Position numbers and translations under genes: made by a program. From positions 62,001 to 126,000 of the forward strand of contig JANQNY010000077.1 in NCBI GenBank assembly GCA_028279345.1: 64,000 nucleotides of DNA. Reading direction: 5' to 3'. This DNA is from Geminicoccaceae bacterium (GTDB lineage: Bacteria > Pseudomonadota > Alphaproteobacteria > Geminicoccales > Geminicoccaceae). Under the pieces are notes generated by a model. The model saw nothing but the letters and a program-made list of their open reading frames with translations. It did no database searches and was not told the DNA's origin. Positions 31,469 through 48,158 of the stretch are shown here, one piece after another; position 1 is the first letter of the stretch, and every line of letters starts with the position of its first letter.

Positions 31469-32263
31469 TCAGCGCAGATACTCGACATTGCCGCAGACAC
31501 TGAGCGATTGGCCGGAGATGCTCTCACCCGCCGCCGAGCAGACGAAGACGGCCATATTGGCGATATCCTGCCGACTGACGAACTTACGCAGCGAGGCGAG
31601 CGCCACATACTCTTCGCGCATCTCGTCGAACGACACGCCGCGCGCCTCGGCCTTGGCCGCGATGACGCGGTCGATGCGCTCGCCGGCGGTGGCGCCCGGG
31701 AGGATGGCGTTGACGCGGATGTTGGAGGGGCCCAGCTCGACGGCGAGCGCCTGGGTCATCCCGACGACCGCCCATTTGGACGCGCAATAGGGCGAGCGGA
31801 GCGGAAAGCCGAGGCGCCCGGCGGCAGACGATAGGTTGACGATCGACCCGCCGCCGGCGGCCTTGAGGAGCGGCACCGCCTTGCGCGCGGCGTAGAAGTG
31901 GCTGTTGACGTTGACGGCGAAGGTGCGTTGCCAGTCCGCGATGGCGATGTCCTCGACCGCTGCGGTCGGGCCCGCCACCCCGGCATTGTTGATCAGCACG
32001 TCGAGCCCGCCGAGCCAGTCGGTCGCTGCCTCCATGAACCGGTCCATCGCCGTGGGATCGGCGACATCGCAGAGCATCGTACCGAAGCCCGGCTGCTCGA
32101 GTCTGCAGGCGTCGAGCGCCTCCTCATCGACATCGCAGAGAAACACCCTGGCGTTATTGGCGAGGAAGCTGTCGGCGATCGCGCGGCCGATGCCGGCGGC
32201 GGCTCCGGTGACGATGACCCGGGTGCCGGGTTTCAGGGGAACGCGGGCGATGTCCTCGGACAT
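31469..32263 (-). CDS. SDR family NAD(P)-dependent oxidoreductase
   Basis: A 264-residue classical SDR: VTGAAAGIG, Asp after strand 2 (LCDVDEEA) implying NAD, NNAGVAGP, NLSSAAGR and YCASK. It ends the minus-strand transport and beta-oxidation run, 132 bp after the BKACE gene and separated from it by a very stable hairpin. A beta-hydroxyacid or hydroxyacyl substrate would fit the neighbourhood. The ATG at 32263 gives the normal SDR N-terminus. Confidence 0.88.
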   Translation of the reverse strand: MSEDIARVPLKPGTRVIVTGAAAGIGRAIADSFLANNARVFLCDVDEEALDACRLEQPGFGTMLCDVADPTAMDRFMEAATDWLGGLDVLINNAGVAGPTAAVEDIAIADWQRTFAVNVNSHFYAARKAVPLLKAAGGGSIVNLSSAAGRLGFPLRSPYCASKWAVVGMTQALAVELGPSNIRVNAILPGATAGERIDRVIAAKAEARGVSFDEMREEYVALASLRKFVSRQDIANMAVFVCSAAGESISGQSLSVCGNVEYLR

Positions 32264-32303
32264 GGTTGGTCTCCTGGTTGTGGTTGCTTTGGCGTTGCCG
32301 TTG

Positions 32304-32374
32304 CCACCCACGCCCCCGCCCTTCCGCCCGATGGCATCGTACGCTCGCGGGCGGAAGGGCGGGGGCGTGGGTGG
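32304..32374. repeat. Perfect 27-bp inverted repeat (very stable hairpin)
   Basis: Arms 32304-32330 and 32348-32374 are exact reverse complements of 27 bp, very GC-rich (CCACCCACGCCCCCG at the outer end), around a 17-nt loop. It lies between the BKACE stop and the SDR start. There is no T-tract on the minus strand, so it is not a textbook terminator. Options are a terminator of another kind, an mRNA-stabilising stem after the BKACE message, or a REP-like palindrome. Confidence 0.9.
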
Positions 32375-32395: not shown

Positions 32396-33334
32396 CTAGA
32401 ACGCGACGAGGTCGCCGCCCTTGAGTGCCAGCATGGAGCGTGCCTCAGCGGGGGTCGCGACGTCGAGCGACAGGTCCTCCACGACGCGCCGCACCTTCTG
32501 CACCTGCTCCGCGTTGTTGGCGGCCATGCGGCCCTTGGCGAGGAACAGGCTGTCCTCGAGGCCCACGCGGACATTGCCGCCCATGATCGCGCCCATCGTG
32601 ACGAACGGCATCTGGTGGCGCCCCGCAGCAAGCACCGACCAGACATAGTCATCGCCGAACAGGCGATCCGCGGTCCGCCGCATGAAGACCAGATTGTCGT
32701 GATCGGCGCCGATGCCGCCGAGGATGCCGAAGATCGTCTGGATGAAGAGCGGTGGCTTGACCAAGCCGCGATCCAGGAAGTGCGCCAGGTTGTAGAGGTG
32801 GCCCACGTCGTAGCACTCGTGCTCGAAGCGCGTGCCGCAGCCTTCGCCGAGGTGCTGCAGGATGTACGCGATGTCCCGAAAGGTGTTCCTGAAGATGAAG
32901 GCGTCGGTGCCGCACAGGTAGGGTTCCTCCCAGTCGTGCTTCCACGCGCTGTAGCGGTCCGCCATCGGGAAAATGCCGAAGTTCATCGAGCCCATGTTTA
33001 GGGACGCCATCTCCGGCTGAGCGCGGAGGGCCGCCGCCAACCGTTCCTCGACCGTCATGTTGAGGCCGCCGCCGGTCGTGATGTTAATGACTGCGTCGCA
33101 CTGCTGCTTGATGCGCGGCAGGAACTGCATGAAGACATCGGGGTCGGGCGTCGGCACGCCGGTCTTCGGATCACGGGCGTGGAGATGAATGATCGAGGCA
33201 CCGGCTGCGGCCGCTGCCAGGCTCTGCTCGACGATCTCGTCGGGTGTCACCGGCAGTGCGTCCGACATGGTCGGCGTGTGGATCGCGCCGGTGATCGCGC
33301 AGGTGATGATGACCTTGCGGCGGCCTGGGCTCAT
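32396..33334 (-). CDS. BKACE-family beta-keto acid cleavage enzyme
   Basis: A 312-residue TIM-barrel of the BKACE (3-keto-5-aminohexanoate cleavage enzyme) family. It reacts a beta-keto acid with acetyl-CoA to give acetoacetate and a new acyl-CoA. Zinc ligands are visible in HLHARD (His about 50 and 52) and in the late GGNVRVGLED segment with the conserved Glu; VITCAITGAIHTP opens the barrel. The ATG at 33334 follows a GGAGC ribosome site and matches the family start. Its place after livF suggests it processes the compound imported by the Liv transporter. Confidence 0.9.
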   Translation of the reverse strand: MSPGRRKVIITCAITGAIHTPTMSDALPVTPDEIVEQSLAAAAAGASIIHLHARDPKTGVPTPDPDVFMQFLPRIKQQCDAVINITTGGGLNMTVEERLAAALRAQPEMASLNMGSMNFGIFPMADRYSAWKHDWEEPYLCGTDAFIFRNTFRDIAYILQHLGEGCGTRFEHECYDVGHLYNLAHFLDRGLVKPPLFIQTIFGILGGIGADHDNLVFMRRTADRLFGDDYVWSVLAAGRHQMPFVTMGAIMGGNVRVGLEDSLFLAKGRMAANNAEQVQKVRRVVEDLSLDVATPAEARSMLALKGGDLVAF

Positions 33335-33402
33335 ATCGGGGCTCCTTTCTGGCGGTTCGGCCGGGGCGGCTCGGGCCGGCCGCTCGCGACCGACGGCTGG
33401 GT

Positions 33403-34098
33403 CTACACCTCCATCCACTCGCGGCGGATGCTCGGATCGGCCTCGAGGCCCGCAGGCGTTCCGGCGAAGACGATGCGGCCATGGCCCACGACGTAGAGGC
33501 GCTGCGAGATCTCCAAGGCGATCGTGAGCTTCTGCTCGCAGAGGACGACGGCGATGCCGCGCTTCGCCATCTCCAAGAGCAGATCCTTGACGCGCGTCAC
33601 GATCAGCGGCGCCAGGCCCTCGGTCGGCTCGTCGACCATGATCAGGTCCGGATCGCCCATCAGCGTTCGGCCCATCGCCAGCATCTGCTGCTCGCCGCCC
33701 GAGAGCACGCCGGCGGCCGTGTCGGCGCGGGCCTCGAGTGCCGGGAACAGCTCGAACAGCTCGTCGATGCTCCAGCGTCGCGCCGGCCGGCCGCCCTTGA
33801 GGCCCAGCTTGAGGTTTTGCCGCACGGTCAGCGACGGGAAGATGTCGCGATGCTCGGGCACGTAGCCGATGCCGCGATGGGCGATCTGATGCGGCTTGAG
33901 ACCGATCAGCTCTGCGCCTGCGAAGCGCACGCTGCCCGTGGCCGTGACGAGCCCCATGATCGCCTTGATGGCGGTTGACCGGCCCGCGCCGTTGCGCCCC
34001 ATGAGGCTCACGATCTGGCCTGGCGCCACATCGAGATCGATGCCGGCGAGCACGTGGCTCTTGCCGTAATAGGCGTTGAGGTCGCGCACCTGGAGCAT
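33403..34098 (-). CDS. livF: Branched-chain-type ABC transporter ATPase (LivF)
   Basis: A 231-residue ABC ATPase of the LivF type, with signature LSGGEQQMLAMGR and Walker B LIMVDEPTEGLAP. The Walker A loop reads GRNGAGRST, so the normally invariant lysine is arginine (about residue 40). This substitution is unusual though seen in some Liv ATPases. It abuts livG (start and stop share position 34098). Confidence 0.92.
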   Translation of the reverse strand: MLQVRDLNAYYGKSHVLAGIDLDVAPGQIVSLMGRNGAGRSTAIKAIMGLVTATGSVRFAGAELIGLKPHQIAHRGIGYVPEHRDIFPSLTVRQNLKLGLKGGRPARRWSIDELFELFPALEARADTAAGVLSGGEQQMLAMGRTLMGDPDLIMVDEPTEGLAPLIVTRVKDLLLEMAKRGIAVVLCEQKLTIALEISQRLYVVGHGRIVFAGTPAGLEADPSIRREWMEV

Positions 34099-34853
34099 CA
34101 GTCGGCCTCCACGCCCAGATAGGCCGCCTTGACCTCCGGGTCGGCCTTGATCTGCGCAGGCGTGCCTGTCGCGATGAGGCGGCCGTAGCAGAGCACCGAA
34201 ATCTGGGTCGCCAGATCGAAGACAACCTGCATGTCGTGCTCGACCATCACGAGCGTCTTGTTTTCGGAGAGCTCGTGGATCAGGGCCACCGCGCGCTCCG
34301 TCTCACTGCGGCTCATGCCGGCTGTGGGCTCGTCCATAAGCAGCACGTCGGCGCCGCCGGCCACGGTCATGCCGATCTCGAGCGCCCGCTGCTCGGCATA
34401 GGAGAGGAGGCCTGCCGGCACATCGCGCCGTGCGGAGAGCTGCAAGCGTTCGAGCAGCGCGTCCGCCGCGTCGTGCACGTCGCGGAGCCTCGGGCAGAGC
34501 CGCCAGAAGGCATAGCCATAGCCCATCGCGAAGTAGAGCGCGCAGCGGACGTTCTCGACCACGCTCATGCGGTGGAACATGTTGGTGATCTGGAAGCTGC
34601 GGCTGAGCCCGAGCCGATTGATGCGGTAGGGCGGCAGCCCGGTGATGTCGCGCTGCTTGAGCCGAATGCGTCCGGCAGTCGGCGTCAGGCGGCCGCTCAC
34701 CAGGTTGAAGAGGGTCGACTTGCCGGCGCCGTTCGGGCCGATGATCGCGTGCCGCTCGCCGGTGCCGACCGCCAGGCTCACCCCCTGGATGATGGATGTC
34801 GTGCCGAAGGACTTGTGGACGTCGTCGAGCTCGATCGCCGGGGCCCAGGTCAT
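34098..34853 (-). CDS. livG: Branched-chain-type ABC transporter ATPase (LivG)
   Basis: A 251-residue LivG-type ATPase with an intact Walker A (GPNGAGKST), a Liv-type SYAEQRALEIGM signature in place of LSGGQ, and Walker B VLLMDEPTAGMS. The C-terminal extension typical of LivG (GTPAQIKADPEVKAAYLG) is present. The ATG at 34853 overlaps livM by 4 bp. With LivF it powers LivHM. Confidence 0.93.
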   Translation of the reverse strand: MTWAPAIELDDVHKSFGTTSIIQGVSLAVGTGERHAIIGPNGAGKSTLFNLVSGRLTPTAGRIRLKQRDITGLPPYRINRLGLSRSFQITNMFHRMSVVENVRCALYFAMGYGYAFWRLCPRLRDVHDAADALLERLQLSARRDVPAGLLSYAEQRALEIGMTVAGGADVLLMDEPTAGMSRSETERAVALIHELSENKTLVMVEHDMQVVFDLATQISVLCYGRLIATGTPAQIKADPEVKAAYLGVEAD

Positions 34854-39337: not shown

Positions 39338-40192
39338 TCACGCATAGCCGTACCAGCCACGTCCCGTCTTGCGGCCGCGCTCGCCCGCGGCGACCTTCAG
39401 CTTGAGGAGCGGCCGCGGCAGAAAGCGCTCGCCATAGGCGCCTTTGAGAATCTCCTGCACCTGCAGAACGAGGGTGTTGTCGGAGAGATCCATGAGCTGG
39501 AACGGGCCCACCGGATGCCCGAGGCCGAGCTTGCACGCGACATCGATGTCCTCCACGTCGCAGACGTTTTCCTCGACCAGCCGGACCGCCTCGATGAGGA
39601 ACGCGTGCAGCAGGCGATTGACGGCGAAGCCCGGAACGTCGCGCACGCGGATTGGTGTCTTGCCGACCTTGCGCAACAGCGTGCTGATCCGCTCCGCGAC
39701 CGCGTCGGCCGTGGCGATGCCTGCGATCACCTCGACCAGCGGCATGCGTGAGGCCGGTGAGAAGAAGTGCGTGCCGAGGAGGTGCGACCGCCGCGCCGGT
39801 GCGACGCTCGCCGCCAAGGAGCTGATCGGAATGGTCGACGTGTTGCTCGCCAGGACGCACTGAGCCGCGCAGATCGCGTCGAGCCGAGCGAAGAGGGCCT
39901 TCTTGAGCTCCATCTCTTCGGAGATCGCCTCGACGACCACGTCGCACGCTCCGAAAGGCTCCAACGTTGCCGTGGTAGAGAAGTTCGCCTGGAGGCGTTG
40001 AGCGTCGTCGATGGCGAGTTCGCCTTTGGCCACGCTCCGCTCCAGGATGGCGCTGAAGCGGTCAGGAGCGCTGCCGAGCGTCGCCGCGTCCCGATCGGTC
40101 ACGCGGACCTCGTGCCCGGCGATGGCGAAGACCGACGCGATCTCCGCGCCCATCATGCCGGCACCGACCACACCGATCCTCGCATGCTCCAT
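39338..40192 (-). CDS. 3-hydroxyacyl-CoA dehydrogenase family protein
   Basis: A 284-residue single-function enzyme (start ATG at 40192; an in-frame ATG at 40216 adds 8 residues). Motifs in order: VGAGMMGAEIA (NAD loop), SNTSTIPIS (catalytic Ser/Asn), GTHFFSPASRMPLVEVI (catalytic His/Glu), and RDVPGFAVNRLL. All catalytic residues of the family are present. This matters because the FadB-like neighbour at 43265-44887 has lost them. It would oxidise 3-hydroxyacyl-CoA to 3-oxoacyl-CoA for the thiolase. Confidence 0.92.
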   Translation of the reverse strand: MEHARIGVVGAGMMGAEIASVFAIAGHEVRVTDRDAATLGSAPDRFSAILERSVAKGELAIDDAQRLQANFSTTATLEPFGACDVVVEAISEEMELKKALFARLDAICAAQCVLASNTSTIPISSLAASVAPARRSHLLGTHFFSPASRMPLVEVIAGIATADAVAERISTLLRKVGKTPIRVRDVPGFAVNRLLHAFLIEAVRLVEENVCDVEDIDVACKLGLGHPVGPFQLMDLSDNTLVLQVQEILKGAYGERFLPRPLLKLKVAAGERGRKTGRGWYGYA

Positions 40193-40219
40193 GGCGAACT
40201 CCTCACCCGTGCCCATGGC

Positions 40220-42016
40220 TCAGAGGCACTCCGGTCTGGCCGACAGGCACGTGTCGTCGAACCGCTCGAGCAGGGCGGCCCAGTGCTCGATCCGCGGCAG
40301 CTCCCAGGTCATGAAGTACCGGCAGGCTAAGAGCTTGCCCTGGTAGAAGGCCTGTTCTGACGGTGCGGCCGTCGCGAGCGCATGTGCTGCGACGCGGGCC
40401 TGCTCGAGCCAGATCCAGCCGCCGACGACATGGCCCAGGAGCCAGAGGTAGAGGGATGCATTGGCCAGGAAGCGATCGCTCTCATCGGCTCGTTGGCGCA
40501 ACGTGTGGGTCGTTGCGCTGAGCCTGCGGACCGCTTGATCCAGCGCCTCGGCGTAGCCGCTCATCCTCTCGACGGAGCGGGCGGCCTCGATGGTAGTGCG
40601 CATGCGGTCGAGCAGCAGCGTGAAGGCGGCACCATCCTCCAGGGTCACCTTGCGTCCGAGCAGGTCGATGGCCTGGATCCCGTTGGTGCCCTCGTGGATC
40701 GGGTTCAGACGGTTGTCGCGGTAGAAGCGCTCGACCGGGTAGTCCCGGGTATAGCCATAGCCGCCGAGCGTCTGCATCGACTGGTAGCTCGCCTCGAGGC
40801 AGACGTCCGACACCCATGCCTTCACGACCGGCGTCAGGACCTCGAGGAGCAGACGGGCGTCTCCCCGCGCGCTTTCCTCTTCTGCCGTGAAAGCGTCGTC
40901 GACCAGACGCGCGGCGTAGAGGCAGAGCGCCAAGGAGCCCTCGGCGAAGGTCTTCTGCACCAGGAGCATGCGCTTGACGTCCGCATGCTCGACGATCGGC
41001 ACCGGCGGCGAGGCCGGGTGCTTGGCGTGCGCGGGGCGGCCCTGCGTCCGGGTGCGCGCGTAATCGAGCGCGTGCAGATAGCCCGTATAGGCGAGCATGG
41101 CAGCACCCAGCCCCACGGTCGTGCGCGCCTCGTTCATCATGTGGAACATGCAGGCGAGACCGTGGTTCGGCCGGCCCAGCAGGTAGCCGACGCAATCGCC
41201 TCGCTCGCCGAAGCTCAGAACCGTCGAGGTGGTGCCCCGATAGCCCATCTTGTGGATCAGCCCCGCCGTCGCGACGTCGTTGCGCCGTCCGAGCGTGCCG
41301 TCCGCGTTGATCAGGTATTTAGGGACGATGAAGAGCGAGAGGCCAGCGACCCCCGCAGGCGCACCGCGAACCCTGGCGAGCGTCAGGTGGATGATGTTCT
41401 CGGCCAGGTCGTGATCGCCGCCGGAGATGAAGATCTTGCCGCCGGTGAGCCGATAGCTGCCGTCGGCGGCTGGCTCGGCCGTGGTCCGGACATCGGCGAG
41501 TGCCGAGCCCGCCTGCGGCTCGGTCAGTGCCATGGTTCCAAAGAACCGGCCCTCCAGCATTGGCCGGCAGAAGGTCTCGATTTGCGCCGGGCTACCGAAG
41601 CGACGGACGAGGTTCGCAGCACCCTGGGTGAGCAGGAGGTAGCCGGCCGCGGCGGTGTTGGCGGCGGTCACGATGCCGAAGCACGCCTGGAACACCGAGA
41701 ACGGCAGCTGCATGCCTCCCAGCGCCTCGTCCTGCGTCGCCGCGACGAAGCCTGTCTCGACATAGGTGGCGAGGGCCGCGCGCATCGCCGGCAGGCATCG
41801 GACGCCGTCCGCACCTAGCGTCGGCTCGTGCTCGTCGGCCGCTGCGGCGTGCGGCAAGAACCACTCGGTGGCGATGTCGTGCGCCGTGTCGAGCGCCGTA
41901 TCGAAGGTCTCGCGCGAGTGGCCGGCGAACCGTTCGCGCTCTGTCAGCTCCTCGGAGTCCAAGAGTTCATAGAGTAGGAAGCTCAGGTCGCGTCGGTTCA
42001 CCAGCAAGGACGTCAT
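40220..42016 (-). CDS. Acyl-CoA dehydrogenase, long form (DmdC-like)
   Basis: A 598-residue flavoprotein, about 200 residues longer than classical acyl-CoA dehydrogenases, with an N-terminal extension and a C-terminal extra domain (residues about 470-598). Motifs: MALTEPQAGSALADV (substrate/FAD), GGKIFISGGDHDL, and MNEARTTVGLGAAMLAYTGYLHALDYARTRTQGR. This architecture is that of DmdC (3-methylmercaptopropionyl-CoA dehydrogenase) and relatives. The ATG at 42016 matches family starts. It introduces the 2,3-double bond into the acyl-CoA made by the upstream ligase. Confidence 0.88.
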   Translation of the reverse strand: MTSLLVNRRDLSFLLYELLDSEELTERERFAGHSRETFDTALDTAHDIATEWFLPHAAAADEHEPTLGADGVRCLPAMRAALATYVETGFVAATQDEALGGMQLPFSVFQACFGIVTAANTAAAGYLLLTQGAANLVRRFGSPAQIETFCRPMLEGRFFGTMALTEPQAGSALADVRTTAEPAADGSYRLTGGKIFISGGDHDLAENIIHLTLARVRGAPAGVAGLSLFIVPKYLINADGTLGRRNDVATAGLIHKMGYRGTTSTVLSFGERGDCVGYLLGRPNHGLACMFHMMNEARTTVGLGAAMLAYTGYLHALDYARTRTQGRPAHAKHPASPPVPIVEHADVKRMLLVQKTFAEGSLALCLYAARLVDDAFTAEEESARGDARLLLEVLTPVVKAWVSDVCLEASYQSMQTLGGYGYTRDYPVERFYRDNRLNPIHEGTNGIQAIDLLGRKVTLEDGAAFTLLLDRMRTTIEAARSVERMSGYAEALDQAVRRLSATTHTLRQRADESDRFLANASLYLWLLGHVVGGWIWLEQARVAAHALATAAPSEQAFYQGKLLACRYFMTWELPRIEHWAALLERFDDTCLSARPECL

Positions 42017-42056
42017 CGCGCCGTCCACCGGTGGCTGGGGCGCGCTCGTTCCGCCA

Positions 42057-43241
42057 TCACGCGACCTCGAACAGGCCGGCGGCACCCATGCCGCCGCCGA
42101 TACACATCGTGCACACGACGTAGCGCGCACCGCGCCTGCGTCCCTCGATGAGCGCGTGCCCCACCATGCGGGCGCCGCTCATGCCGTAGGGATGGCCGAT
42201 GGAGATGGCACCGCCATTGACGTTGAGGCGCTCCATCGGCAGGTCGAGCCGGTCACGGCAGTAAACGACCTGCACGGCGAACGCCTCGTTGAGCTCCCAG
42301 AGGTCGATGTCGTCCACGCGCAGACCTTGGCGCTCCAAGAGCGCCGGTACGGCGAAGACGGGTCCAATTCCCATCTCGTCGGGCTCGCACCCGACCACGG
42401 CCATGCCGCGATAGATGCCGAGCGGGCTCAGATTGCGCTGTTCGGCGAGCCTCTGGTCCATGACGACGCAGGCCGACGCGCCGTCCGAGAGCTGGCTCGC
42501 ATTGCCCGCCGTGACGGTGCCGTTCGGGCCTGCGACCGGCTCGAGCGAGGCCAGTTTGTCGAATGTGGTGTCGGCCCGGTTGCCCTCGTCCTTGGAAAGC
42601 GTCACGGTTTCGCTCAGCTCGTTACCCGTCGCCGTGTCCGCGACCGCCTTGACGGTGGTGATGGGCGCGAGTTCGTCGGCGAAGGCGCCGCTTGCTTGGC
42701 CGGCGGCCGTTCGCCGTTGGCTTTCGAGCGCATAGGCGTCCTGCGCATCGCGGCCGACGGCATAGCGCCGGGCAACGACCTCCGCCGTCTCGAGCATGCT
42801 CATGTAGATGGCGGGCTTGACGCTCTCGAGCGCTCGATCACGCACCGGTAGAACCGCCTCGGGATTGCTCTGCACGAGGCTGATGGACTCGACGCCGCCG
42901 GCGACCACGATCGACATTCCATCGACGACGACCTGCTTGGCCGCGTTGGCGATCGCCATCATCCCGGACGCGCATTGCCGGTCGACGGTCATGCCGGGCA
43001 CGGTGGTGGGCAATCCAGCGGTGAGGCCCGCCTGCCGGGCGATATTGAAGGCCTGGTGACCGCGCTGGACCGCAGCACCCAGCACGACGTCCTCGACCTC
43101 GGCCGGATCGACGTGGGCCCGCTCGACGGCAGCAGCGATGGCATGCGCGGCGAGGCTCGCGGAAGGAGTGCGGTTCAGCGCACCGCGATAGGCCTTGCCG
43201 ATCGGTGAGCGAGCGGTGGCGACGACGACGGCTTCGCGCAT
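42057..43241 (-). CDS. Acetyl-CoA C-acyltransferase (thiolase)
   Basis: A 394-residue thiolase. The nucleophilic Cys is in DRQCASGMM (about 90), the acid/base His in [17 protein letters not shown], and the second Cys in [10 protein letters not shown] near the end. It cleaves a 3-oxoacyl-CoA with CoA. The ATG at 43241 is 6 nt downstream of AAGGAGG; an ATG at 43247 would sit directly on the ribosome site. It lies 23 bp after the FadB-like gene. Confidence 0.92.
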
Positions 43242-43264
43242 TCGCATCCTCCTTCTAGCCCCGC

Positions 43265-44887
43265 TCAGCAGCCATCGAGCGGATCGCTCGAAGCGGCGAC
43301 TGCCACGAGGCTCGGCGGTGGCGCCGCCGCTGGGAAAGCGTCTCGCCATTGCGCAAGCACGACGCTTGCGCCCCGGCGGCTCACCTGGTGCATCGGTCCG
43401 CCCTCGCGCGCTGGAACGACCCCCGCACGAACCGCCAGGACGTCGATCGCCGCGGCGGTCTCGACCACGCCCGCGTCGATCAGCCCGAAGCCTGCCGCCA
43501 CCAGCGCGAGCAAGCGCCGCTCGGCGGCGTCCGGGTGTGCACGAAGGCAGTCCAGGAGCTCGAGCGAGGCGGCGCGCTCGGCACCCCACTCGGGCACGAC
43601 GGCCCAGTCGTCGCCGGCCGTGAGCCGCAGCGCCGACGCGGCCACGCCCTGGTCGATGCCGATGGGAAAGACGAGCTCGACGAGCCGATCACCCACGCAG
43701 AGGCCGAAGAACCGGTCAGCAGTGGTGAGGACGCGCTCAACTGCCGGCCAATCGTGGGTGTCGCTCAGGATGGCAACGGCGGCGCCCTTAGCTGCGGCTA
43801 GTGTCGCGGGTGCCGTATCGGTGAGCAGAGCCAGGTCGACGGGATCGGAGCCGGCATCTGTCGACGCCTCGATGAGCCTGAGCCCGGTGGCGTCGAGATA
43901 GCTTCTGGCAGCCGCTGAAAGGGGGGTACTGCCGACGACGACGGCACGCCGCCAGCGTCGGGGTGCCACAGCACCAAGGCGTTCGCTCCGGCGCGCCCGG
44001 CGCAGGGCGAAGAAGCCATGGATGAGGGCGCGGCTCTCCGGCGTCTCGTAGCAGACCCAGAACAGCTCGCGTTCCCTGGCCATCGCTCGATCGAAGGGCG
44101 TGGCCCAGGCCATTTCCACGGCATCGATGCAATGGCTGTGCGCGGGGACGGCATCGTCGCGCCGGGTAGTCGCGTCACGTACGGCAGCCAGCACCTCCGG
44201 CTCGGCTACCGGCGCCAGGTCTCGCGTCCGCTGCCACGCGCCGACCGCGGCTAGCGTTGTGGCGCGCGAGACCGCTGCGCCCACTAGGTCGTCCGGCGCC
44301 AGCTCCTCGACGCAGCCGGCGGCGAACGCTTCCTCCGCCGAGAAGAAGCGGCCGCTCAAGATCACGTCGAGAGCGAACGACGTTCCGGCGAGGCGCGGTA
44401 GTCGCTGCGTGCCGCCCGAGCCGGGCAGCAAGCCGAGCTTGATCTCCGGCAGCGCGAACCGTGTGCCGGGCGCGGCGATGCGCCAGTGACAGCCCATGGC
44501 GAGCTCGAGCGCACCGCCTACGGCGACGCCGTTGAGCGCGATCACGACAGGCTTGGGCGAGCGCTCGAACGCGTCGACGACGTCGTTGAGATCGGTCGCG
44601 AAGGCGCCACCCGCGAACTCGGCAATGTCTGCGCCGGCGCTGAAGAGGCGCCCCTCCGCCGCAATGACGACCGCGTCGACGTCGGGGTCGGCGATCGCGG
44701 CGCGGGCGCCTGCGAGCAGCCCTGCCCGGACCTTCTCTGTCAGCACGTTGACGGGCGGGTTTGCGAGGGACAGCAGAGCTACGCGTCCCTGGCGTTCGCT
44801 GCGGACCGCGGGCGCCTGAGCACTTGCCGGCTTGCCGTTCCTCGGCGCGAGCCGATCTTCTTCTCTTGCTCGCTGAACCGCGCTCAT
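43265..44887 (-). CDS. FadB-like protein: enoyl-CoA hydratase fused to a decayed dehydrogenase domain
   Basis: A 540-residue protein. Residues about 35-230 are an enoyl-CoA hydratase/isomerase domain with [13 protein letters not shown] and [20 protein letters not shown] (oxyanion loop). [15 protein letters not shown] carries the Glu position. Residues about 320-520 follow the layout of the 3-hydroxyacyl-CoA dehydrogenase half of FadB/FadJ, but compressed. The Rossmann GxGxxG is replaced by [12 protein letters not shown], the SNTS and HFF(S)P motifs are absent, and only a late GGPM segment is recognisable. That half is probably inactive. The start overlaps the ligase stop (ATGA). The single-function dehydrogenase downstream would supply the missing step. 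Confidence 0.85.
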
Positions 44888-46527
44888 CTGCCGGTGATCT
44901 CGTAATCCGCGTATTGCTTGCGCAATTCGCTTTTGAACAACTTGCCCGTCGCGGTGTACGGCAGGCTGTCGACGAAGAGGACGTCGTCGGGAATCCACCA
45001 CTTCGCGACCTTGCCGTCGTAGAAGGCGAGGATGTCCTCGCGGCTCGCCTCGGCCGACGGTTGCTTCACGCAAAGGAGCAACGGGCGCTCGACCCAACGC
45101 GGGTGCTTGACGGCGATCACGGCCGCCTCCGCGATCGCCGGGTGCGAGACCGCGAGGTTCTCCAGCTCGATCGAGCTGATCCACTCGCCACCGGACTTGA
45201 TCATGTCCTTGGTACGGTCGGTGATGAGCAGATAGCCGTGCTCGTCGATGGTCCCGACGTCGCCCGTGTCGAACCACCGGTCCGCGTCGACCGTCCCTTC
45301 GCCCGCGTGCCGGAAGTACTCCTCGATAACCCAGTGTCCGCGGGTCTTGATGAAGCCGCTGGTCGTGCCATCGCGCGGCAGCATGCGCCCTGCTTCGTCG
45401 ACCGTCTTGATGTCGATGCCAAAAAGGGCACGTCCCTGCTTCTTCTGCAGCTCGAAATAGGCCGGGGAGGGGTAGCGTGCGGTGCCACGCTTGGGGCTGT
45501 TGACGCCCGCGATCGGGCTGAGTTCGGTCATGCCCCAGGCATGGACGACCTTGACGTCGGCGTGCTCGGCGAACTCCTGCACGGTCGTCCGCGCAACGGG
45601 CGAGCCGCCGCAGAGGATTCGCTCCATGCTTGGAAGCCGCGTGCCGGTGGCTTCGAGATGGTGGACCAGATTGAGCCAGATGGTCGAGACGCCGGCCGCG
45701 AAGTTGACGCCTTCTTCGATGATGAGGTCGCAGAGCGACGGCGCATCGAGATAGCGTCCGGGGAGCACGAGCTTGCAGCCGACGGCCGCGGCGGCGTAGG
45801 GGATGCCCCAAGCCATCACATGGAACATCGGCACGACGGGCATCACGGTGTCGGCCGCACCGAATCCAAGCGCGTCCTTCATGCAGGCGGCGTAGGTGTG
45901 GAGGAGGATCGCGCGGTGCGAGTAGAGCACGCCCTTGGGCTTGCCGGTGGTGCCCGAGGTGTAGCAGAGGACCGCGGCCGTTCGTTCGTCCAACGCGGGC
46001 CAGGCGAAGCTGGGCGCGCTCTCGGCGAGGAGCGTCTCGTAGCTGAGGAGGTTTGCACTGGCCACCGGCAGGCTTGCCGGCAGTTGGTCCTGCGGCGCCA
46101 GCACGACGATTGGTGGCAAGTGGTTCAGTGCCGGTGCCACCGCCTCGACGACTGGTAGGAGGTCGAGGTCGACGAGCAGCAGCTTGTCTTCCGCCTCGTT
46201 GATCATGAACGCGACTTGCTCGGCGAACAGGCGCGGGTTGATCGTGTGGCAGACGGCGCCGACCCCCGACACGCCATAGAAGATTTCAAGGTGCCGGTGG
46301 GTGTTCCAGGCCAGGGTCGCGACGCGGTCGCCCAAGCCGATGTCCAGCCGGTGCAACGCAGCCGCTAGGCGCCGCGCCCGGTCGGCGAGCTCGGCGTAGG
46401 TGATGCGATGCCGGTCCTCGGACCTTTCGCCGGTCCTGGTGACGATTTCCTGCTCGGGATGCTCGCGCTCGACAAAGTCGATCAGGCTCGAGATCACGAG
46501 CGGATGCTCTTGCATCAAACCGAGCAC
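44884..46527 (-). CDS. Acyl-CoA ligase (AMP-forming), DmdB/fatty-acyl-CoA ligase type
   Basis: A 547-residue adenylate-forming ligase with the P-loop LCYTSGTTGKPKG, the HAWGMTELSP A5 region, DRWFDTGDVG, DRTKDMIKSGGEWIS (hinge) and the catalytic lysine in TATGKLFKSELRKQ. The start is taken as GTG 46527 (VLGLMQEHPL) because GGGAGG precedes it by about 7 nt and related enzymes begin MLGLMQ. An ATG 12 nt further on is the alternative. It activates a carboxylic acid and leads the run of beta-oxidation genes. The operator-like repeat lies about 64 bp upstream. Confidence 0.9.
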   Translation of the reverse strand: MLGLMQEHPLVISSLIDFVEREHPEQEIVTRTGERSEDRHRITYAELADRARRLAAALHRLDIGLGDRVATLAWNTHRHLEIFYGVSGVGAVCHTINPRLFAEQVAFMINEAEDKLLLVDLDLLPVVEAVAPALNHLPPIVVLAPQDQLPASLPVASANLLSYETLLAESAPSFAWPALDERTAAVLCYTSGTTGKPKGVLYSHRAILLHTYAACMKDALGFGAADTVMPVVPMFHVMAWGIPYAAAAVGCKLVLPGRYLDAPSLCDLIIEEGVNFAAGVSTIWLNLVHHLEATGTRLPSMERILCGGSPVARTTVQEFAEHADVKVVHAWGMTELSPIAGVNSPKRGTARYPSPAYFELQKKQGRALFGIDIKTVDEAGRMLPRDGTTSGFIKTRGHWVIEEYFRHAGEGTVDADRWFDTGDVGTIDEHGYLLITDRTKDMIKSGGEWISSIELENLAVSHPAIAEAAVIAVKHPRWVERPLLLCVKQPSAEASREDILAFYDGKVAKWWIPDDVLFVDSLPYTATGKLFKSELRKQYADYEITGR

Positions 46528-46590
46528 AGCCTGCCTCCCATAGCGCCCGCGGGCGTTGACCCGACATATCCGGCCGCTGTGCTCGCCAGT

Positions 46591-46615
46591 TTGTCGGTTT
46601 GTCGGACAAAAATTA
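46591..46615 (-). promoter_or_regulatory. Operator-like repeat upstream of the acyl-CoA ligase operon
   Basis: On the minus strand TGTCCGACAAA then CCGACAA occupies 46608-46591, identical in 17 of 18 positions to 14629-14646. Its core forms a 13-bp palindrome TTTGTCGGACAAA (46598-46610), matching the FadR-type consensus. A weak -10-like TAATTT (46615-46610) overlaps it, as at the other site. Confidence 0.5.
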
Positions 46616-46927
46616 CGCACGCTGTCGGAGGACGTCAAGCGCCTGCCGAAAGGGTCCGGGCCCACCTACGTCGGATGGCCGGTCACACACGGCGTCGCGC
46701 TTTGACGCTCTGAACCGCGCCATCGAGGGGGCGCGCGGGTGATGTTGGCTCTTGGGAGTATGTCGGCCACGCGAGCGCGAAAGGCCGATGACCGCGCTCG
46801 ATCGACCGCGCAACCATGTGATCTAAAGAGTGCGCCGGCTGCAGACAGCACGCGGCTGCAAGCGTGGCATCACGTCACGGACGGTTTTCTGGCTCGAGTT
46901 CCGACGCGGCGGTGAACGATGGGCGCC
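46616..46927. other. Gap between ligase promoter and recombinase remnant
   Basis: About 310 bp in which I see no gene, repeat or RNA. It separates the catabolic run from the mobile-element zone. No attachment-site duplication or tRNA end was recognised here. Confidence 0.35.
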
Positions 46928-48158
46928 TTATGGCCGTTTCCAGCGATGGCAGCGCTCGTCGTGTATCTGATGTTGCGGGGCAGGGCGGGTTCCATGGGTT
47001 GGACCGCCCAGCTTAGATGCCAGTGGCCCAAGTTCGGCAGCCAAAGGCAAAGCTCGCGGGCAGCAATCGGCAGGTGGGCCGCTACAGGCAACGCTGGTTG
47101 CATGCCCCCGCAACCAACGACACTTGCGAGACCAGCCCGCCCCTAGAGGCGGGCTTCTTGCTGTCGAGGCCCGGACCAGATCCCGCTTCGTCTTCGCCGG
47201 CTGCCGTTCCTCGTCGGCGAGCGCGGCTCGGGCCTCGGCACGGAGGCGGTTGGTCTCGTTGGTGAACTCCTCGCAGAACACGCCGAACAGCGTCGGGTCC
47301 ATGAGGCGTTTGCCGAGAGCGCCGAGCACGCGGCGCTCCAACTCACTCAGGGCGATGGTCTTGCGGTTCGCGCAGGGGCCCTTGTTGCGTGCCGCCGAGC
47401 AGCCGACGTGGGTCGCCGAGAGCACCGACATACTGCCGCCACAGACACCACAGGTTACGAGACCCGAGAGCAGATAGCGGGCACGGCGAACCTCACCCAG
47501 CGCCGCGCCGCGATTGCCCATCTGCGTCATTGCCGCTTCGGCCTGTCGTGCCTTAGCCGCCTTCCAGCGTTGGTCGTCGATAATCCGGAGGTCCGACACG
47601 TCGGTGATGATCACCGCGTCCTCGGAGTTGGGGCGCGATACCCGCTTGCCGGTCTCGGGGTCTTTGACGTAGCGCAGCCGGTTCCAAACCAGCCGACCGA
47701 CGTAGAGCTCGTTGTTGAGGATGCCGGTGCCGCGCCTGGGGTTGCCATGAATCGTCGACGCACTCCAGGTGCCACTATGCGGGCCCGTGACGCCCTCCGC
47801 GTTGAGGATGGCAGCGATCGCGCGTGGCGAGCAGCCTGCGACGTAGTCTTTGAAGATCCGCTCTACGACCGCAGCTTCGATGCTGTTGATTGCGCGCTTG
47901 CCGGTCGTCGGCGTGCCGTCTGGGGCGATGCTGCGATCGACGTCGTAGCCGAAGCAACGCCCGCCGCCGGATCGGCCAGCCTTGACGCGGCCCCGCAAGC
48001 CTCTCCGGGTCTTGTCCGCGAGGTCCTTCAAGAAGAGCTGATTCATCGTGCCCTTGAGCCCGACGTGCAGCTCGCTGATCTCGCCCTCGGCCAGCGTCAC
48101 GATCCGCACGCCCGCGAACGTCAGCCGCTTGAAGAGTGCGGCAACGTCGGCTTGGTCT
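46928..48158 (-). pseudogene. Large serine recombinase remnant lacking the catalytic domain
   Basis: The readable protein begins at GDQADVAALFKRL, which corresponds to the end of the resolvase catalytic domain, so the nucleophilic serine is gone. It continues through the recombinase domain (KDLADKTRRGLRGRV, GGGRCFGYDV), LYVGRLVWNR, and the zinc-ribbon (CGVCGG ... C ... C). Family-like sequence stops near 47165. Beyond that the frame reads through a hairpin (47134-47155) into unrelated residues. At its 5' end it is fused to the tyrosine integrase remnant within a shared GACCAAG at about 48150-48158. Confidence 0.85.
47134..47155 (+). terminator. Terminator-like hairpin
   Basis: AGCCCGCC (47134-47141) pairs perfectly with GGCGGGCT (47148-47155) around a 6-nt loop, followed by TCTTG on the plus strand. 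It falls where the serine recombinase stops resembling its family, so it may be the original terminator of that gene or of a lost plus-strand gene. Confidence 0.45.

Follow-up and report, generated by a model that had tools for sequence, protein, structure and literature searches.

The closest described systems are the bifunctional hydratase/dehydrogenases of the MFE1, FadJ and FadB type. In rat MFE1, which is a monomer, helix-10 forms the lid over the hydratase active site. It is physically part of the C-terminal portion of the protein, where domain E is in tight interaction with it (PMC5715344). The dehydrogenase site of MFE1 is formed by domains C and D together (PMC10988713). According to the summary of the deletion experiments in PMC5715344, which cites Kiema 2002, a rat MFE1 variant lacking domain C reportedly has full hydratase activity, and constructs lacking D/E reportedly lose it. 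In the literature that we searched, mostly other than subscription journals, we found no MFE1 that naturally lacks its dehydrogenase.

Here we analyzed a gene of this kind in a 64,000-nucleotide stretch of DNA from a Geminicoccaceae bacterium (the window; Table 1). Judged from its sequence, the gene is a relative of the bifunctional hydratase/dehydrogenases whose dehydrogenase half is no longer functional and for the most part gone. A first-pass annotation had described it as a FadB-like fusion; the fusion ancestry holds up, and the closest relatives of the protein are MFE1/FadJ-type rather than FadB proper. Resemblance to FadJ and FadB extends over residues 33-321 (NCBIfam FadJ PRK11154, 139 bits), but this is far under the curated cut-offs (~870-970 bits; 869 for FadJ), and the window protein is without their dehydrogenase half. 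When compared with rat MFE1 (PDB 2X58, 5MGB, and 3ZW8) and the bacterial enzyme 6IUM, the hydratase, helix-10 and domain E align and both catalytic glutamates are kept, whereas domains C and D and every dehydrogenase motif are absent or can no longer be recognised. The architecture thus resembles that of the engineered rat MFE1 without domain C, as that construct is summarised, in that the NAD domain is gone and the linker helix and C-terminal domain are retained. The two differ in that the engineered protein reportedly keeps D/E, while the window protein has lost domain D as well and carries a drifting filler of ~140 residues.

We consider it probable, at roughly 0.68, that the window protein is a natural hydratase-only MFE1 in which domain E has been kept as a buttress of the lid helix. 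The ancestor would have been a bifunctional enzyme of the MFE1/FadJ type, and the present product a monofunctional 2-enoyl-CoA hydratase, possibly with delta3,delta2-enoyl-CoA isomerase activity as well. Once a separate 3-hydroxyacyl-CoA dehydrogenase in the operon had made the fused dehydrogenase activity dispensable, domains C (NAD-binding) and D could have eroded, with the domain B lid helix and domain E retained and domain E now serving to hold the lid helix on the hydratase active site.

Table 1. Features of the proposed hydratase-only MFE1-type gene and of its operon, in window coordinates.
Feature	Residues	Position	Strand	Evidence
Hydratase-only MFE1-type protein, whole gene	540 aa	43265..44887	-	ORF list (ATG at 44887, end of frame at 43265) and translation
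Domain A, hydratase (crotonase)	32-215	44243..44794	-	Pfam ECH_1 residues 32-213, 6e-34
Catalytic E128	128	44504-44506	-	read from alignments
Catalytic E148	148	44444-44446	-	read from alignments
Domain B, linker/helix-10	216-304	43976..44242	-	alignments; matched to 6IUM and rat MFE1
Eroded middle, at the position of domains C and D	305-448	43544..43975	-	no significant profile match
Domain E remnant	449-515	43343..43543	-	profile match; phmmer to 6IUM and rat MFE1
GGPM segment within domain E		43391-43402	-	
Acyl-CoA ligase (first operon gene)		44884..46665	-	Pfam AMP-binding 6e-73
Acetyl-CoA C-acyltransferase (thiolase)		42057..43247	-	Pfam Thiolase_N 7e-61; NCBIfam PRK07108 below cut-off
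Acyl-CoA dehydrogenase with C-terminal Acyl-CoA_dh_C domain		40220..42130	-	Pfam
Separate intact 3-hydroxyacyl-CoA dehydrogenase (HAD)		39338..40216	-	Pfam 3HCDH_N 6e-55, 3HCDH 1e-25

The hydratase half looks preserved, and the first-pass annotation had noted its oxyanion loop. The Pfam match lies far over its cut-off and assigns the crotonase fold by profile, and both catalytic glutamates are kept, E128 (MFE1 Glu103) within an 11-residue segment and E148 (MFE1 Glu123) within LPEIKLG. On the strength of these segments the protein is predicted to hydrate 2-enoyl-CoA. Both helix-10 contacts to CoA are also retained, F292 and R296 corresponding to F271 and K275 of MFE1; among 108 aligned homologues the phenylalanine is invariant, and the basic position is R or K in every one. 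The salt bridge that joins Glu274 of helix-10 to Arg657 in MFE1 has lost both partners in the window protein, where Glu274 is replaced by L295, so any contact that is kept must be of another kind. Position 657 varies among intact enzymes too. As a separate observation, position 274, the Glu of the FFAER motif, is E in 89 of 96 intact enzymes and D or Q in the others; it is L, A or T in the window protein, in the short forms of gammaproteobacterial family f201 and in the L105 forms, and the other decayed forms keep the Glu.

The second half is a different matter. We found no Pfam match to 3HCDH_N or 3HCDH in the window protein, even at E 0.1. A 10-residue stretch lacking the motif stands where intact relatives have GxGxxG, and the dehydrogenase catalytic Ser, His, Glu, and Asn are absent from the aligned positions. 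The loss of these motifs had been read correctly from the sequence at first pass, as had the shortening, for which the earlier figure of about 200 residues was slightly low: after the linker, ~235 residues remain compared with ~410 in intact relatives, a loss of ~175. Residues 305-448, by their position, would derive from domains C and D; when the middle 143 residues were compared with intact second halves, profile against profile, no match was significant. By contrast with this middle stretch, domain E is still recognised. Using a profile of 412 positions built from 96 intact second halves, we matched residues 453-515 to positions 321-383 at 6e-10 (300 shuffles reached 0.014 at best), and an independent phmmer alignment placed residues 453-507/515 at the end of both 6IUM and rat MFE1. 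The GGPM segment, up to which the first pass had followed a FadB layout, is thus real homology. The profile recognises nothing else in the second half, and what remains there is less a single decayed domain than a drifting middle followed by an end domain that has been conserved. AlphaFold2 with a five-row alignment was partly confident in the hydratase and unreliable beyond residue 278, with pLDDT 25-47 in the second half.

For the leftover domain the first-pass annotation had offered two roles, a structural one and allosteric binding of acyl-CoA with regulation of the hydratase. The latter can draw only on the descent of the protein from an acyl-CoA enzyme, and what has disappeared from it, the domain C motifs and nearly all of domain D, is the dehydrogenase site of MFE1 (PMC10988713); we regard it as very improbable. 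The structural reading is favoured over it, given that domain E packs against the lid helix in rat MFE1 and evolves slowly in family f201.

We also considered whether the gene could be a normal full-length gene distorted by assembly or by a frameshift. A draft assembly in 87 contigs leaves some room for such an artefact, but a six-frame search of the region found the absent dehydrogenase part encoded in no other frame, excluding a simple frameshift, and similar architectures are found in many genomes, some of them on single-contig chromosomes. An artefact is thus hardly credible.

The search for homologues with the same kind of loss was productive. Among 108 hydratase-plus-linker homologues, 96 kept all dehydrogenase motifs and 12 were without the full set; because the second half was fetched partly for short frames, 12 of 108 should not be taken as a frequency. 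These 12 include the window protein, short forms, and full-length forms in which motifs are lost (L009, L112, L141, L158, and L163). L151, L152, L153, and L173 were left out, being short matches that run off contig ends. Short forms that have lost the NAD domain and kept domain E were found in three settings, where they share with the window protein the arrangement of hydratase, linker and domain E and differ from it in the extent of the loss. The first is a conserved family of ~470-520 aa in gammaproteobacterial family f201, present in 34 of 151 genomes and six genera, its aligned members being 48-94% identical to L100. More and less reduced versions occur together within f201, as do hydratase-plus-linker forms and full-length MFE1 (L206 and L207) in which the GxGxxG, Ser, His, and Asn motifs are readable. 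The annotated f201 locus carries a TRAP/TAXI-type transporter and two acyl-CoA dehydrogenases. The second is a likewise conserved family of ~445 aa (L103 and L258-L267), which we take to be from Rhodobacteraceae, in which the NAD domain is absent. Of 198 genomes, 11 have a near end-to-end match to it, or 13 when two shorter matches are counted, and it shares a clade with intact and dead full-length relatives. The third is a single gene, L104, placed in Burkholderiales by its tree neighbours, which has lost the NAD domain and keeps the start of domain D along with domain E.

These natural proteins largely follow the rule of the deletion experiment, in which the NAD domain goes and domain E stays. 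Domain E is not always needed, since L105 (6885-7823, minus strand), L212, and L213, of ~290 aa, stop directly behind the helix-10 linker, carry no trace of a dehydrogenase and thus consist of hydratase and linker alone. In several of L258-L267, L271, and L277, one or both hydratase glutamates are replaced by Asp or a different residue, with the GGPM region conserved, and the chemistry of these Rhodobacteraceae forms may differ from that of a standard hydratase. In the betaproteobacterial L009 (7398-9899, plus strand), an N-terminal MaoC-like domain precedes a fused hydratase/dehydrogenase that has lost part of its dehydrogenase motifs; it would be unusual for one chain to hold two types of hydratase. 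Searches of viral contigs returned one hydratase-plus-linker ORF and nothing else.

Selection was assessed in related genes, as the window gene has no close homologue from which selection on its own remnant could be measured. Across 111 species pairs of the short f201 genes, we divided the dN of individual regions by the dS of the entire gene; the ratio came to 0.15 in the hydratase, 0.20 in the linker, 0.16 in domain E and 0.44 in the NAD remnant. For L112/L141, a pair of dead full-length genes, omega was 0.16 in the hydratase, 0.25 in domain C, 0.40 in domain D and 0.19 in domain E. These values indicate that, in f201 and in L112/L141, domain E is kept best where the remaining dehydrogenase relaxes. 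They also bear on the possibility that the second half of the window protein is merely decaying, a partial pseudogene in progress with a working hydratase and a remnant without a role. The window gene is a singleton on a long branch of the 108-row tree and its middle stretch matches nothing, as would be expected under such decay. However, the frame is open over 235 codons, and GC3 is just mildly lower in the second half (0.78-0.79, against 0.86 in the hydratase), with codon-position bias persisting, somewhat weaker, to the end. Domain E is recognisable where the remainder is not, and the related short families are old, with domain E under purifying selection. We therefore regard simple decay as unlikely and prefer retention of domain E as a buttress of the lid.

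The losses do not trace to one event. In a 36-row tree, a single origin was rejected for the short forms of f201 and Rhodobacteraceae (AU p 1e-6) and for those of f201 and L104 (AU p 7e-6), whereas holding the window protein together with f201 was rejected neither there (AU p 0.36) nor in the 108-row set (0.71); the 108-row tree places the window protein weakly with L105. The well-supported branches force at least three losses, and by these trees the hydratase-only reduction would have happened independently at least three times in bacteria. The phenomenon is thus wider than one gene, and represents a variant of a known enzyme kind and not a new kind. Tentatively, and at slightly under even odds, we would extend this to a recurrent and stable hydratase-only MFE1 architecture in Proteobacteria, in which loss is stereotyped, catalytic residues going first, the NAD domain and domain D next, and domain E, as a fold prosthesis, usually last. 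The genes resemble the rat MFE1 deletion experiment repeated by evolution with its intermediates still visible, so that a structural claim on fused enzymes becomes testable in nature and small natural constructs become available for structural work. For metabolic reconstruction it matters that genes annotated as FadB-like or as 3-hydroxyacyl-CoA dehydrogenase may be without dehydrogenase activity.

The genomic context is consistent with a role in fatty acid catabolism, the gene set looking like an accessory beta-oxidation operon. The start ATG of the window gene overlaps the stop of the upstream acyl-CoA ligase gene, whose product falls in the NCBIfam 3-(methylthio)propionyl-CoA ligase/long-chain ligase group with a score below cut-off, and 17 bases separate its stop from the start of the thiolase gene. 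The HAD noted at first pass as intact and 3 kb downstream is indeed so: it begins 3.05 kb downstream and shows GAGMMG, NTST, HFFSP, LVEVI, and NR in its sequence. It is followed in gene order by a GntR regulator and a branched-chain-amino-acid-type ABC transporter. Because the operon carries this separate enzyme, the fused dehydrogenase was likely dispensable. We take this redundancy to be the probable cause of the loss here: a syntenic operon in G063, G191, and G288 already pairs an MFE1 having intact motifs with a separate HAD, 56-57% identical to that of the window. Within-operon redundancy is not a general rule, since no homologue of the window's HAD was found nearby in the f201 operons examined.

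FadB-type alpha subunits form a complex with thiolase, as the trifunctional enzyme. Domain E might accordingly have been retained as a docking surface for the thiolase or the separate dehydrogenase, whose genes share the operon, rather than as a prop for the fold. Against this, the sequence relatives of the window protein are MFE1-type and rat MFE1 is monomeric (PMC5715344), and the f201 operons examined had no thiolase matching the window's nearby; we consider docking quite improbable.

The operon was likely acquired horizontally, because a recombinase gene adjoins it upstream. This gene (46928-48109, minus strand), a hint of a mobile element, encodes Recombinase and zinc-ribbon domains, and no resolvase N-terminal domain was matched in that frame. 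An MFE-type match at 1e-40 was present in only 1 of 30 other genomes of the order, in a frame of 805 aa, and the best acyl-CoA dehydrogenases of relatives in the order are only 34-43% identical to that of the operon. Downstream of the ABC transporter lie genes for a beta-keto acid cleavage enzyme (BKACE; 32399-33316, minus strand; Pfam 6e-106), which occupies the last 300 codons of an ORF at 32396-34225, and for a short-chain dehydrogenase (31469-32311, minus strand). Both may belong to the same catabolic cluster as the operon.
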